A stretch of 29,980 bases of DNA, from positions 1 to 29,980 of the IMG/VR virus record IMGVR_UViG_3300034375_007693. One strand, written 5' to 3'. Made by a program: the position numbers and the translations under genes. This document shows positions 1 through 29,980 of this stretch, piece by piece. Under the pieces are notes generated by a model, which saw only the letters and a list, made by a program, of their open reading frames with translations, searched no databases and had not been told where the DNA came from. How positions within the stretch are numbered: the first letter of the stretch is position 1; the number at the start of each line of letters is the position of its first letter. Source of the stretch: a virus.

Positions 1-127
1 GGCTCGCCGGTGCGGCAGACGTAGGCATGCAGGCGGTAAGCATGCAGCACGCAGCGAAGATGCAAGAGGCATCTATCCCCAAGCTCGATGACCTCTCGCT
101 TTACCGAGGCTACCAGCCGCAGCCCGT
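1..127. repeat. Terminal direct repeat, left copy (circular contig overlap)
   Basis: These 127 bases are identical to the last 127 bases of the window (29854-29980). Both copies carry the same part of one reading frame, and joining them restores an intact 220-codon gene. A length of 127 is a common maximum k-mer size in short-read assemblers, so the simplest reading is the overlap of a circular or circularly permuted genome rather than a physical end repeat. The unique genome length is then 29,853 bp. Confidence 0.93.
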
Positions 128-11835: not shown

Positions 11836-14100
11836 TCATGTGCTTGTGGTGAGTTCAAAGTCGCTACGGGTGAGCTTCTTGATTGCAATAATGCCAGTGT
11901 CGCTGCCCTCTGCCGGGCAGTCCTTGAAATAATACGTGACCCCAGCCGAGCGATACCGCAGGAACCCTGCGCCGTGCAGTGCCGAGCTCAGCGACAGCCC
12001 GAAGCGCTGCGTGCTGAGGTTGGGGTCTACGGCACCGGCAAACTCGGCAACGGTGAACCGGTTGCGCCTGCCTCCCTTGTTTGCGTCGTGCGCCTTCGCT
12101 GCGCACTGGGAGAACCAGTCGAGGTACTGGAAGACTCCGTTTGCGCGTCGGTTCTCTCGTGTCTCTTCTTTGTTGAGCCACCACTCTTCTCCCTGGTCGT
12201 ACGCAACATACGACTCGGCAAGAAGCTGGTCACGGTACTTGCGCAGCCAGTCGAGGCCGGCAGTCTCACCCCGGCAGGGGATGACCCAGTACCTACGGCT
12301 GCCCGTTCGATCTCTGAGCACATCTTGCTCATTTGAGGTCATCGTGATGACGGTGTGCCTGCGGTATGTCCGCAGCTTGCGCCCGAAGGGAGGCCGGAAT
12401 CGGTCGATGGCAGAGGTGATGAATGCCTTGCGTGTCTCTTGGTCTGCGTTGCTGCTGCCCGCCATCTCGGCGTCTTCGTAGATGAGAGCCGAGTAGAGCT
12501 GCATGTAGCTGTCTTTGTCCTTGATATTGAAGCGGGTGTCACTGTAGAGGCCGTCCTGCCCTGGCCAGTTCGCCCACTCTCGCCACACTGTGCTCTTTCC
12601 CCAGCCTTGGGGACCGGTCAGCAACATGCAGGTGTGAAGCTGACAGCCAGGCGAGAAGAGCCGAGCCATTAGACCGACGCACCACTTCCGCGAATATGTG
12701 CGGTGAATGGGCAGGTCCTCGACATTGCAGACCTCCAGCAGCCATCGGTCAATCCTCGGGCACCCGTCCCACTTGAGCGCCTTGACGTAGTCCTGCACAG
12801 GATTGCGGGTGAACTTGCGGCAGACGTACTCGACAGCAGAGAACAGCATCTCGCGACCAATACGCCAGTGCCAATCGTAAGCGGTCTCCATGTGCGTAAC
12901 GACGCGCATCCAGACACCGTCGTCAATGACATCGTGCCCGTCCATCTCCTGTTCTCTGAAGGAATCAAACCAGAGGTTGAAGGCTGCGTCATGGGTGAGC
13001 ATGGTGTGCAGGTTCGTCATCGAGTTCTTCACCCTGCCCGGTGTGCCGTCCTTCTTTGAGGCTTCGCGACGCAGCTCGGCTAAGCCCGGTGTGCTCGCAG
13101 GTTTGTAGGTGTTCCAGTAGCTTGTGGCGTTAGGGGCGCTGTAGTAGCGCATCCTTCCGTCATTCTCGCGATGGAAGAAGCCACTGCCGACACTAGTGCC
13201 ACCGTACGGGCAGATGACCTTCAGCCGCTCGCCTGGGGCAAGGGCATCGGCGCACTGTTGCCACGTTCTGCCGTCTGCGAGTCGCTGCGTCCGAAAGTCG
13301 CAGTCTACAGACTTCGCCTGTCTCGGTCGCTTGCGGGCAGGAACCGGACTTGGGCGGGCTGTCGCCTTGTTTTCCGTGAGCTGTCCTTGCTTGCCGTGCT
13401 GCGCTTGCAGTCGGCCTACGATGTCGGAGGTGAGCACAGTATCGGAGGCCGCGACAACCTCGACAGGCTGAAGACGCCAAGCACACTTCGTGTTCATGCT
13501 GCCCGGTGCCCTTGCGAGTCGGGCGCCTACATCGTGCGTCCGGTCGTATGCCTTGTGGTAGGTCGTCAAAGGGGGATGGAAGCCCTGCGCAAGCTCGGCA
13601 GCACGTGCGTTCACCTCGTCAACAATGGCAACGTGCAGAGCCTGCAGGGCAGCCTTCTCGCTGCGCATCACCTCGTCTACAGCGTAGTGGAAGTGATAGC
13701 CCCAGCCACTACATATAGTGAGCGTCGGAGGTGCGCCCATGGCAGTCTCGAGCAGTCCTCCAACGTCTTGCAGCAGGAGGTCTAAGAAGCCCTGACGCTG
13801 CTCGTCGGGCATCTGGTACATGTGCGCCTTGCGGTCTGCAGCCTTGTCGGGCAGTGCGTTGCCTCGAGCGAGGCGAGCAGCGTCCACGAGGCCGAGCATA
13901 TCGAGGTCAAAGAACAACGAGGTCACACCCCGGCAGTTCTTGACCGAGCGCCCCCTCGCCTGAGCGTCGACGGAGCCCCGGAAGAAGTACCCGGTAGAGA
14001 TGTAGTCCCCACCGGCAAGCGACTGCTCAACGTACATGCACCCGTCTGGGGGCTCAGGCCATACCGTGCGGACACGTGCGTCAGGGTGTCGTGCGTTCAT
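11836..14100 (-). CDS. AEP primase fused to VapE/VirE-type superfamily 3 helicase (754 aa)
   Basis: This is the replication initiator or primase-helicase of the phage. The N-terminal primase of archaeo-eukaryotic type has FFDLD (metal Asp65 and Asp67), SGWGYHFHY (about 131-139) and LARAPGSMNTK (about 195-205), a match to the R-x-PG(T/S)xNxK signature. A middle segment (about 265-345) has CPYGG and may be a zinc or DNA-binding part. The VapE/VirE ATPase follows: NPVQDYVKALKWDG (about 433-446), Walker A GPQGWGKST (496-504), Walker B LIYEDAEM (539-546), MTSNEQDVLRDRTGSRRYW (587-605) with the sensor Asn and arginine residues. The ATG has AAGGA upstream and overlaps the previous gene by 20 bp. No polymerase gene accompanies it. 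Confidence 0.9.
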   Translation of the reverse strand: MNARHPDARVRTVWPEPPDGCMYVEQSLAGGDYISTGYFFRGSVDAQARGRSVKNCRGVTSLFFDLDMLGLVDAARLARGNALPDKAADRKAHMYQMPDEQRQGFLDLLLQDVGGLLETAMGAPPTLTICSGWGYHFHYAVDEVMRSEKAALQALHVAIVDEVNARAAELAQGFHPPLTTYHKAYDRTHDVGARLARAPGSMNTKCAWRLQPVEVVAASDTVLTSDIVGRLQAQHGKQGQLTENKATARPSPVPARKRPRQAKSVDCDFRTQRLADGRTWQQCADALAPGERLKVICPYGGTSVGSGFFHRENDGRMRYYSAPNATSYWNTYKPASTPGLAELRREASKKDGTPGRVKNSMTNLHTMLTHDAAFNLWFDSFREQEMDGHDVIDDGVWMRVVTHMETAYDWHWRIGREMLFSAVEYVCRKFTRNPVQDYVKALKWDGCPRIDRWLLEVCNVEDLPIHRTYSRKWCVGLMARLFSPGCQLHTCMLLTGPQGWGKSTVWREWANWPGQDGLYSDTRFNIKDKDSYMQLYSALIYEDAEMAGSSNADQETRKAFITSAIDRFRPPFGRKLRTYRRHTVITMTSNEQDVLRDRTGSRRYWVIPCRGETAGLDWLRKYRDQLLAESYVAYDQGEEWWLNKEETRENRRANGVFQYLDWFSQCAAKAHDANKGGRRNRFTVAEFAGAVDPNLSTQRFGLSLSSALHGAGFLRYRSAGVTYYFKDCPAEGSDTGIIAIKKLTRSDFELTTST

Positions 14101-14320
14101 CGTGCAGTTCCTTTGCTTTGAGCATGAATGCAGTAGCGGCTTCGCAAGCCTCTCGGCGAGTCGGACGGAGCCCTACCTCTACGAGGTCGCCGCCCATCTT
14201 GTTGACGCGCCACGCCCAGTACTCGCCCGAGGGCTGCACGTCTGCGTCGAGATACGGTTCTCGAAGGGTGCGCTGCAGCCCGATGCCGAAGACGTACCAG
14301 GGGCTGAGTCGAGGTCTCAC
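14081..14320 (-). CDS. Small early protein, paralogue of the 50-aa gene upstream (79 aa)
   Basis: The function is unknown. The GTG start at 14320 overlaps the previous stop (GTGA) and gives an N-terminus (V-RPRLSPWYVFGIGLQ) that matches the 50-aa protein encoded at 14933-15085. That match fixes the start better than any ATG would. Residues about 8-28 are encoded by a 67-bp sequence that is repeated exactly in the paralogue. The rest (GEYWAWRVNKMGGDLVEVGL, then a helix rich in Ala, Glu and Lys) looks like a compact beta-beta-alpha fold. Its 3' end overlaps the primase start by 20 bp. Confidence 0.72.
   Translation of the reverse strand: MRPRLSPWYVFGIGLQRTLREPYLDADVQPSGEYWAWRVNKMGGDLVEVGLRPTRREACEAATAFMLKAKELHDERTTP
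14236..14302. repeat. 67-bp exact direct repeat, copy 1
   Basis: This sequence is identical base for base to 15001-15067. It lies within the 79-aa gene and encodes the same residues in the same frame as copy 2 (PWYVFGIGLQRTLREPYLDA and two more). Codons just upstream in both genes encode nearly the same residues but differ at several synonymous positions, so the exact identity ends abruptly. That is the pattern left by gene conversion or a very recent partial duplication. Confidence 0.95.
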
Positions 14321-14808
14321 GATGCCCTCCGTTGGCGTTGCAGATTGTGCCACACGTCTCGCACCGCCCACCGGCTGAGCCGAAACGGCATCTCATCGTC
14401 TGCGAGGATAGAGCGGTAGACTTCGCCGGGGCTCATGTCCGGCCAGTTCTCGACATAGATAGCAACCTCTTGCTCGATGACTGCGCGACGCTGACCGCAA
14501 CCGGGCAAGATGCCGAGCTTGCGACGAAACCACCGGACAGAATCGGCCTTTACGCCCTCCCGGCGCGCAATCTCACGATCGCTTTGGTACGGATTCCGGG
14601 CGATAAGCTCGCGAAATCTCGTGGTAAGGGTCGTCTCTTCGGGCAGCATCCCATTGTCAGACCAACGCTTGTAAACCGCCGCCGGACGAATCCCGAACTC
14701 ATCCCCTGCATCCTTGAGAATGCCTTTCCTCACCTCTTTGTCGGTCTCCGCATAGTAGCGGTCTCGCCACACTGCGGTCTGTGCAAGCTCTTCAGCTTTG
14801 AGGGTCAT
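14317..14808 (-). CDS. Multi-helix-turn-helix DNA-binding protein (163 aa)
   Basis: This is a probable phage transcription regulator or DNA-binding replication factor. Three HTH-like units can be seen: FGIRPAAVYKRWSDNG (about residues 37-52), SDREIARREGVKADSVRWFRRKLGI (about 75-99, the clearest, resembling a resolvase/sigma-type HTH), and SPGEVYRSILADDEMPFRLS to RDVWHNL (about 125-155). Basic residues cluster in the recognition helices and at the end (QRQRRAS). The ATG at 14808 overlaps the stop of the 43-aa gene (ATGA). The longer frame from 14943 is rejected because its extra N-terminus is low-complexity Arg-rich and covers two other coupled genes. It is a candidate binder of the repeated operators at 16083-16336, though this is not shown by the sequence. 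Confidence 0.72.
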   Translation of the reverse strand: MTLKAEELAQTAVWRDRYYAETDKEVRKGILKDAGDEFGIRPAAVYKRWSDNGMLPEETTLTTRFRELIARNPYQSDREIARREGVKADSVRWFRRKLGILPGCGQRRAVIEQEVAIYVENWPDMSPGEVYRSILADDEMPFRLSRWAVRDVWHNLQRQRRAS

Positions 14809-14936
14809 CCGACCACCCCAAGCTCTGCGGCGCAGTCCCAGTAGCCGGCCTCGACTCCTGCGCGGTGCCCGGAGTCGTAGCTGCACCGGGCGAGCGTCAG
14901 CGCCATGGCGACGAGTAGCCAGTGTGAGCGGGTCAC
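14805..14936 (-). CDS. Tiny coupled membrane or lipoprotein-like peptide (43 aa)
   Basis: A GTG start at 14936 overlaps the previous stop (GTGA), and the TGA overlaps the next ATG (ATGA), so it is coupled at both ends. The peptide begins MTRSHWLLVAMALTLARCSYD: a positive start, a hydrophobic core of about ten residues, then LARC-S, which has a Cys where a lipoprotein signal would place it (the preceding Arg is atypical). The remainder is short and polar with a second Cys. It could be an inner-membrane peptide that alters host physiology. Function is unknown, and the coupling is the main support for it being real. Confidence 0.58.
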   Translation of the reverse strand: MTRSHWLLVAMALTLARCSYDSGHRAGVEAGYWDCAAELGVVG

Positions 14937-15085
14937 GAGTCACCCCTACGCAGAGACCACGCGGGGCACGGCGGGGCGTCTCGCGGCGGCATGGACGGGG
15001 GCACGTCTGCGTCGAGATACGGTTCTCGAAGGGTGCGCTGCAGCCCGATGCCGAAGACGTACCAGGGAGTCAGGCGAGGCCTCAT
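14933..15085 (-). CDS. Short paralogue of the 79-aa protein (50 aa)
   Basis: The ATG at 15085 overlaps the previous stop (ATGA), and its own TGA overlaps the GTG of the 43-aa gene. The first 28 residues (MRPRLTPWYVFGIGLQ and on to DADV) match the 79-aa protein, and 22 of the codons are identical to it through the 67-bp exact repeat. After DVPPS the sequence diverges into a Pro-rich tail with one Cys (ending SLRRGDS), so it lacks the conserved-looking second half of its paralogue. It may be a truncated, decaying copy or a product with a private function. Confidence 0.65.
   Translation of the reverse strand: MRPRLTPWYVFGIGLQRTLREPYLDADVPPSMPPRDAPPCPAWSLRRGDS
15001..15067. repeat. 67-bp exact direct repeat, copy 2
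   Basis: This is identical to 14236-14302 with the same orientation and reading frame, and lies inside the 50-aa gene. The two copies are 765 bp apart start to start. Homologous recombination between them would delete three small genes (the 50-aa, 43-aa and HTH genes) and fuse the N-terminus of one paralogue to the body of the other. Confidence 0.95.
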
Positions 15086-16063: not shown

Positions 16064-16082
16064 GTGGGCTCCTTGGGTCAGG

Positions 16083-16124
16083 TGGGACACTTGTACCATT
16101 GGGACACTTGGCCCACAAGTCCCA
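16083..16124. promoter_or_regulatory. Operator cluster, three TGGGACACTTG half-sites
   Basis: TGGGACACTTG occurs at 16083-16093 and again at 16100-16110, 17 bp apart in direct orientation. A third, inverted and slightly altered copy (ACAAGTCCCA) ends at 16124, so the second and third form an imperfect palindrome around GGCC. The cluster lies 20-61 bases before the first leftward start, inside its leader, where a bound repressor would block transcription of the early block. Confidence 0.65.
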
Positions 16125-16177
16125 TCAATGTCATAGTTGTGTCACAGCCCTCAGCGCATCGGGCAAACCCTGCACTC

Positions 16178-16205
16178 TTGTAAATGCCCTAATACTCGGT
16201 ATAGT
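16178..16205 (+). promoter_or_regulatory. Rightward sigma70-like promoter for the late block
   Basis: TTGTAA (16178-16183), a 16-bp spacer and TATAGT (16200-16205) match the consensus at 4 of 6 and 5 of 6 positions. The -35 shares its TTG with element A and the -10 shares ATAGT with element B, so anything bound to these elements would compete with polymerase. Transcription would begin near 16212 and leave a leader of about 164 bases before the small terminase. Confidence 0.62.
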
Positions 16206-16297
16206 GCAGGGTGTGGTACTTCTGCCGGTTTGTGACCGACCATAAATACCCAAGAAAAAAACAAACCAGAGAAAACTCTAAACCCCCCACACCCTGC

Positions 16298-16325
16298 ACT
16301 ATGAGCTATCCATGGGGTTTCTCAA
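16298..16325 (-). promoter_or_regulatory. Leftward sigma70-like promoter for the early block
   Basis: On the minus strand TTGAGA (16325-16320), a 16-bp spacer and CATAGT (16303-16298) match the consensus at 5 of 6 and 4 of 6 positions. It is the mirror image of the rightward promoter and points at it. Transcription would begin near 16291, cross the rightward promoter and the TGGGACACTTG cluster, and reach the first leftward gene after about 228 bases. Confidence 0.58.
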
Positions 16326-16375
16326 GAGTGCAGGGTCTGCCCCGCCCACTATGACGTCATTCTCGGAGATTCTAC

Positions 16376-16618
16376 GTGAAAGCACCTATGACTACAGAGC
16401 AGATTCTTGAAGCGGTTGCGAAGCTCGCACCCGAAGCCATCACCTGCATCGAGGGCACCTTGCAGGGGCGGCAGGCACCAAACAAGGCGCAGCTCGATAG
16501 CGCCTGGCGGGTGTTGGAGTGGAGCAAAGAGGCAAGCGCAGTGCGGGCAGCGACAGCCACGGACACCCCAGACGTCGAAGAGCTCAAGAACGTGCTTAAG
16601 CTCGTGGGGGAGTGGTAG
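16376..16618 (+). CDS. terS: Putative small terminase subunit (80 aa)
   Basis: This is predicted to recognise phage DNA for packaging and to regulate the large terminase encoded next but one. The protein is short and helical. EQILEAVAKLAPEAITCIEGTLQGRQAPNKAQLDSAWRVLEW has the PEA(I)..L...L.....P...R..AA..hL pattern seen in the N-terminal helices of many small terminases, though it is shorter than most. The C-terminus is an acidic coiled helix (VEELKNVLKLVGEW) suited to ring assembly. The GTG at 16376 is preferred because GGAG lies seven bases upstream. An ATG four codons later is the alternative. It is the first gene of the late block, the usual place for terS. Confidence 0.6.
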   Translation: MKAPMTTEQILEAVAKLAPEAITCIEGTLQGRQAPNKAQLDSAWRVLEWSKEASAVRAATATDTPDVEELKNVLKLVGEW

Positions 16619-29360: not shown

Positions 29361-29980
29361 ATGTCCGCAATCGCACTCGGCCTTCTCGGACTCGGCGCAG
29401 CCAAGGCCGCAGGGGGCATCGCTCAAGGTGTCGGCGCTGCTCGAGCAGCGAAGGCCATGCAGCTTACACCGCAGCAACAGGCCGAGCTTGCCCGCTTGCG
29501 CGCGCGCCAACGCAAGGGGAACCTTGGGCTCACAGCAGCAGAGGAAGCCCGGATGCGCAGGCAGGCCGAAGGCGCGCAGATGGGAGTCACGCGCGACCTT
29601 GAAGCAATGGCGCTGCAGCAGGCAGCAGCCCAACAGGCCGGCGGTCGGGCAGTCATGGGGCGAGACATCTTCCTGCAAGAGCAGGCCGAGCAGCAGACGC
29701 TTCGAGGCATGCAGCAGCAAGAAGAGCAGAGCATTCGAGAGGCCGACACTGCCGAGCGTCAGGCCGAGCGAGCGGAGATAGCAGCCCTGCAGATGCAGTC
29801 ACAGCAGGCAGAAGCGCAACGACGGGCAGGTATTGCGCAGGCAGTCAGCCTCGGGCTCGCCGGTGCGGCAGACGTAGGCATGCAGGCGGTAAGCATGCAG
29901 CACGCAGCGAAGATGCAAGAGGCATCTATCCCCAAGCTCGATGACCTCTCGCTTTACCGAGGCTACCAGCCGCAGCCCGT
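29361..29980 (+). CDS. Ejection-type virion protein, N-terminal part (gene crosses contig join)
   Basis: The gene runs to the window end and, once the 127-bp overlap is removed, finishes at base 170, giving 220 aa (T7 gp14 is 196 aa). The N-terminus is a Gly/Ala hydrophobic segment (IALGLLGLGAAKAAGGIAQGVG, about residues 4-25) able to insert into a membrane. The rest is a long Gln/Ala/Glu/Arg helix (AQQAGGRAVMG, EQAEQQTLRGMQQQEEQ). It is the first of three adjacent ejection-type genes. The start uses TGAGGTCTTCATG, where the previous stop is part of the ribosome site, as at the portal gene. Confidence 0.72.
   Translation, partial: MSAIALGLLGLGAAKAAGGIAQGVGAARAAKAMQLTPQQQAELARLRARQRKGNLGLTAAEEARMRRQAEGAQMGVTRDLEAMALQQAAAQQAGGRAVMGRDIFLQEQAEQQTLRGMQQQEEQSIREADTAERQAERAEIAALQMQSQQAEAQRRAGIAQAVSLGLAGAADVGMQAVSMQHAAKMQEASIPKLDDLSLYRGYQPQP
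29854..29980. repeat. Terminal direct repeat, right copy
   Basis: This is an exact copy of bases 1-127, lying inside the coding sequence of the 220-aa virion protein. Removing one copy gives a closed circle without disturbing any frame. Confidence 0.93.

Follow-up and report, generated by a model that had tools for sequence, protein, structure and literature searches.

Origins of replication that combine iterons with an initiator helicase of the SF3/VapE–D5 type are a known kind of origin, represented by those of SaPI Rep, phage P4 alpha and SCCmec Cch2. In the origin of SaPIbov1, iterons on either side of an AT-rich stretch are opposed to each other, and phage P4 uses two distant sites with other iterons. 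For both SaPI Rep, apparently acting as two hexamers, and SCCmec Cch2, the C-terminal domain was found to be the part that contacts the short iterons of the origin; Cch2 loads itself as a helicase, and its C-terminal domain, when isolated, binds direct repeats located between genes (PMC7581432). In the account of Yeo et al. 2002 given in PMC10516667, P4 alpha is a primase–helicase fusion in which a C-terminal winged helix binds the origin. A different arrangement is found in the early control region of coliphage 186, where the promoters pR and pL are convergent and placed face to face (PMC6593788, PMC7498355).

The site analysed here lies at 16167–16336 of a viral DNA of 29,980 nucleotides (the whole stretch, hereafter the window). 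Judged from its sequence and from that of its relatives, it is very probably the replication origin of the phage, carrying iterons for the initiator, and as such it is an added member of the above type. The likeness to the SaPI Rep/PriRep origins of Staphylococcus aureus resides in a VapE-type initiator helicase, short iterons and a C-terminal domain as reader (here predicted). Differences concern the place of the origin (between divergent genes, ~2 kb upstream of the gene for the initiator, whereas the SaPI origin is directly downstream), the iterons (9–10 bp, GC-rich and few, namely four, with a wide 37-bp or ~46-bp spacing per flank) and the carrier, which is a whole phage and not a satellite. 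As with P4 alpha, the protein is a primase–helicase with a predicted C-terminal winged helix, but one site was found here against the two distant sites of P4. Intergenic repeats together with a helicase that has a C-terminal DNA-binding domain (again predicted here) also recall Cch2, although the putative Cch2 origin consists of three repeats of 5 bp downstream of the gene. Unlike in the pR–pL regions of 186 and P2, the facing hexamers seen here are not conserved, and no lysogeny repressor or integrase was recognised among the annotated genes.

Anatomy of the site and its genomic setting

Two 50-bp modules, read directly from the sequence, make up the site. Module 1 (16167–16216, plus strand) has the form ACCCTGCACTCTTG-N20-ATAGTGCAGGGTGTGG, and module 2 is the same pattern on the minus strand (16336–16287). 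Both contain ACCCTGCACT and AGTGCAGGGT as inverted decamers with centres 36 bp apart and mirror each other about position 16251.5, exactly as an earlier note on this DNA had described them; the AT-rich centre, a degenerate fifth iteron and the circularity of the genome had been overlooked. The 10-mer ACCCTGCACT has exactly four copies in the whole window, all within these 170 bp, and the 9-mer ACCCTGCAC has five (0.41 expected), four of them at the site and one elsewhere. The features of the site and of the gene for the presumed initiator are the following.

16167–16176, plus strand: left outer iteron ACCCTGCACT; almost every class A relative retains the 9-mer (classes are defined below)
16178–16205, plus strand: promoter-like TTGTAA-16-TATAGT, a hexamer match; not conserved, function doubtful
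16203–16212, minus strand: left inner iteron, reading AGTGCAGGGT on the plus strand; its GGGT side faces the AT-rich centre
16213–16286, no strand: AT-rich centre, presumed DNA-unwinding element, from base composition
16282–16290, plus strand: degenerate fifth iteron ACCCCCCAC (7/9), in tandem, 9 bp before the right inner iteron
16291–16300, plus strand: right inner iteron ACCCTGCACT, an exact match
16298–16325, minus strand: promoter-like TTGAGA-16-CATAGT, a hexamer match; not conserved, function doubtful
16327–16336, minus strand: right outer iteron, reading AGTGCAGGGT on the plus strand, an exact match
11836–14100, minus strand: VapE-type primase–helicase of 754 aa, presumed origin-binding initiator, from Pfam and PDB matches
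11911–12123, minus strand: C-terminal winged-helix part of the initiator (aa 660–730), from an AlphaFold model of residues 641–754

The 70 bp between the modules (16212–16283) are the AT-rich extreme of the window, with a GC content of 0.40 against 0.62 for the whole 29,980 bases; in relatives, the centre between the modules has a GC content of 0.35–0.48. At the place of the degenerate iteron, a full ACCCTGCAC is found in three relatives (L022, L027 and L029).

A stretch of 127 bases is repeated without change at the two ends of the window (1–127 and 29854–29980) and, because this end repeat is exact, the window is read as a circle of 29,853 bp. The majority of the other full-length records in the group likewise close as circles, with overlaps of 99 or 141 bases. 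Early genes (RHH, VapE, ERF, RuvC-like, exonuclease and SSB) are on the minus strand and extend leftward from 16.1 kb, and late genes (p80, TerL, etc.) extend rightward from 16376; the claim that the site is a hub between the early (minus-strand) and late (plus-strand) blocks is supported. The best TerL match among cultured phages reaches 26%, and a search for relatives among genome contigs, made with the question of the host in view, found none. In four of six records, the maximum of the cumulative GC skew falls no more than ~0.7 kb from the site; at the fourfold-degenerate sites of the window, GC skew tracks gene direction. Because the skew follows gene direction, including where it switches at the site, it is uninformative on the origin and was dropped as evidence.

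Other repeats occur in the early region. A direct repeat of 91 bp, 91% identical (14229–14319 and 14994–15084), flanks the HTH-like gene. Between a conserved box TGTCATAGTTGTGTCACAG (at about 16131–16149) and the first early gene, an adjoining array at 16077–16130 repeats a NNGGNACCA-like unit 5–6 times, one every 9 bp, and classes A, B and C share this period although the sequence differs. The lag-9 identity of the array is 0.47–0.62, and at most 20 of 500 shuffles were as high in any locus; possibly, it is an operator array of the RHH protein. The RNA structure of the early leader was no better than that of shuffles, and searches for an Rfam match or a tRNA found none.

Iteron classes in relatives and in unrelated phages

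Relatives were gathered by TerL and VapE searches of viral contigs, which gave some 90 loci, many of them overlapping. Class A has the ACCCTGCAC half-site of the window. Sixteen relatives of class A possess both modules, and the distance between half-sites is 37 bp in every case; in one of the 16, L017, the half-sites have diverged. Over 34 class A modules, the columns of the 9-mer carry 1.6–2 bits each and most of the spacer carries little information, which supports the proposal of selection on the end sites shared by both modules. Conservation of these end elements in related phages was the check named beforehand by the earlier note: the half-sites persist and the middles vary. Close relatives carry four half-site copies. 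Group E, with a VapE ~52% identical, has 5–8 exact ACCCTGCAC copies at the site and none elsewhere in the group E DNA searched; its inner iterons form tandem rows at 10-bp intervals, on one side or on both, and the arrangement, a fuller form of that in the window, is mirrored about the AT-rich centre. Oppositely oriented iterons around an AT-rich element are hence present in both the window and its relatives, and 5–8 tandem copies facing such a centre fit replication iterons better than a two-site operator. An CTATTCATGG-like element in the half-site spacer is common to class A and group E (L033:4396-4441, L108:4668-4722) and could be the site of a second protein.

In two sublineages, the half-sites have changed as a set, to ACCCGTCCC in class B (L019, L021 and L025) and to a run of C in class C (L036–L041 and L054). 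The VapE tree places classes B and C as nested among ACCCTGCAC phages, that is, as two separate switches. The span between outer edges is 170–175 bp in class A (ACCCTGCAC), 171 bp in class B (ACCCGTCCC) and 171 bp in class C, and the within-module spacing is 37 or 45–49 bp, the two being about one helical turn apart. The distant class D (L075 and kin) has ACCCCTCA iterons at the same intergenic place, and no clear iterons were recognised in the stretches read of some VapE relatives, L095 and L100 among them.

Two homology-free pattern scans were run over all viral contigs. The first, AGTGCAGGGT-N49-79-ACCCTGCACT, returned 18 stretches, 15 in this phage group and 3 outside. Three AGTGCAGGGT...ACCCTGCACT pairs (L145:4821-4906, L149:4438-4523 and L146:460-534) occur where the available contig DNA is without the TerL and VapE of the group, and the pair of L145 and L149 belongs to a long palindrome. 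The second scan, GGGACGGGT-N52-82-ACCCGTCCC, returned 14 stretches: three in this group, four arrays outside it, one GC-rich repeat and six two-copy matches, these last being about the number expected by chance. Among the large genes scanned near the two-copy matches (not an exhaustive set), none is of the D5/DUF5906 kind. All four multi-iteron GGGACGGGT arrays outside the family (L153:4880-5050, L162:1380-1540, L160:5160-5350 and L159:9720-9900) adjoin D5_N/DUF5906 helicase genes; they amount to about three independent cases because L153 and L162 are near-copies. In these unrelated phages, the array sits at the 3′ end of the helicase gene and is likely the origin of the phage concerned.

The candidate initiator and other possible binders

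The 754-aa protein matches the Pfam VapE-like_dom (1.4e-62) and the PHROGs DNA helicase (8.6e-66), and PDB entry 7pds, the SaPI initiator PriRep1, is matched in sequence (5.8e-34) and is also its best fold match. An AlphaFold model of the whole protein is poor (pLDDT 53); residues 641–754 are predicted to form a winged helix (helix-helix-strand-strand, pLDDT 83), and a fold search with this model gave several winged-helix regulators among the top matches, none below E 0.001. In the model, S705 is located in the recognition helix and T722 in the wing. Of 300 VapE columns that are invariant in 15 ACCCTGCAC phages, 7 change in class B and 10 in class C, and T722 is the only one altered in both switched sublineages (to K and N), the two switches being independent. 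In addition, S705 is changed to A in class B; class D keeps both S705 and T722 despite its different iteron. By our estimate, one shared changed column is expected by chance at ~0.2, and one within the winged helix at ~0.02. As a sign that residues of VapE may follow the iteron class, these changes are suggestive, being few and based on two switches.

The window and a full group E record share structural genes, p80, SSB, exonuclease, RuvC, ERF, VapE and a diverged RHH. Among the genes common to phages with ACCCTGCAC, VapE is the best candidate for the iteron binder, as far as sequences tell. The RHH and HTH proteins, which the earlier note had put forward as operator binders, are unlikely in this role and were rejected. 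Phages that share the half-site lack the HTH protein (14317–14886), and the presumed DNA-contact strand of the RHH protein does not track the half-site, being RPRLS-like in both classes A and B, which have different iterons, and KYRVELS in group E, which has the class A iteron.

Rival readings and the predicted origin

The site had been read as two facing promoters with a shared operator, which would start transcripts near 16212 and 16291, give the leaders an overlap of ~80 bases and let one protein set the early/late balance. Part of this stands: both hexamer pairs exist with a spacing of 16 bp, no other sigma-70-like site occurs in 600 bp (0.2 expected in shuffles) and the pairs lie between divergent early and late genes. 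The two matches are not independent, since they belong to one flanking sequence that is present in two mirror copies. The part that does not stand is conservation. An inward pair that scores 9/12 and passes for a sigma-70 promoter is confined to the window and the near-copy L007. The remaining regions that were scanned, from classes A and B, group E and L102, lack it, and their promoter-like sites, if there are any, fall at other positions; a wider scan for the same facing pair returned only the window and L007. The 5–8 tandem copies of relatives and the failure of the candidate binders also speak against it. Since the hexamers are lost and the half-sites kept, comparison with relatives led to rejection of this reading, which is now held to be improbable. 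The earlier note knew of no described phage switch with this exact geometry; face-to-face early promoters as such are known from coliphage 186. A second mirrored facing pair was seen at the outer module edges of L036 and L038 in class C (TTGACG-19-TACCAT and TTGACG-19-TACGAT), with a 19-bp spacing that is unusual and long for a promoter. A mixed situation, in which the origin is also a transcription switch in the clade of the window, has a small chance of being true; convergent transcription from the facing promoters would then prime or open the origin and initiator binding would shut it off, so that replication start would be coupled to the early/late change.

An operator of a phage repressor or regulator without a replication role, its half-sites cooperatively holding a protein that shuts both gene blocks, would agree with inverted half-sites at helix-phased spacing and with the joint change of all four half-sites between sublineages, as happens in immunity operators. 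This is very improbable, since the only regulator gene found in common among phages with the half-site is the RHH gene, itself unlikely, and one would expect of an operator neither the AT-rich extreme in the centre nor the comparable arrays that unrelated phages carry next to helicase genes. A packaging start (pac/cos) read by p80 (16376–16618) as small terminase is the least credible of the alternatives and hardly to be believed: the site is just upstream of p80 and TerL, and p80 is conserved in relatives, but p80 is without a Pfam or PHROGs match, none of its 20 invariant columns follows the half-site class, and the mirror symmetry is more in keeping with a start in both directions than with directional packaging. 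The lack of linked change in p80 also counted against it as the iteron binder.

The reading as a replication origin rests on what the analysis showed, namely the anatomy of the site and how it is conserved, the AT-rich centre, the joint change of half-sites, the VapE family and the predicted winged helix. Against it count the distance of the site from the initiator gene, ~2 kb upstream (16.2 kb versus 11.8–14.1 kb, the gene being read away), the small number of linked residue changes, the retention of S705 and T722 in class D, the weak result of the fold search with the winged-helix model and the VapE relatives in which no clear iterons were recognised. From these features we infer how the origin may work. 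The four ACCCTGCAC copies, with the degenerate fifth, would be iterons, two per side and mirrored, around a 70-bp AT-rich unwinding element, and they would be bound by the C-terminal winged helix of the VapE-type primase–helicase. By analogy with the described systems, one initiator complex may assemble on each flank, each facing the other across the AT-rich centre; the two VapE complexes would jointly melt this centre and load as helicase, giving bidirectional replication. Iteron binding may also repress or time nearby early and late transcription, a plausible effect on these promoters given the position of the iterons, with the early operon on one side and the late operon on the other.

The comparison illustrates that, when a single genome is considered, mirrored origin iterons can pass for a promoter switch. 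For an uncultured group of circular phages of ~30 kb, without a close relative among cultured phages, the site gives a predicted origin, its initiator and candidate specificity residues. With sister lineages that have different iterons in the same frame, the code linking initiator and origin becomes testable.
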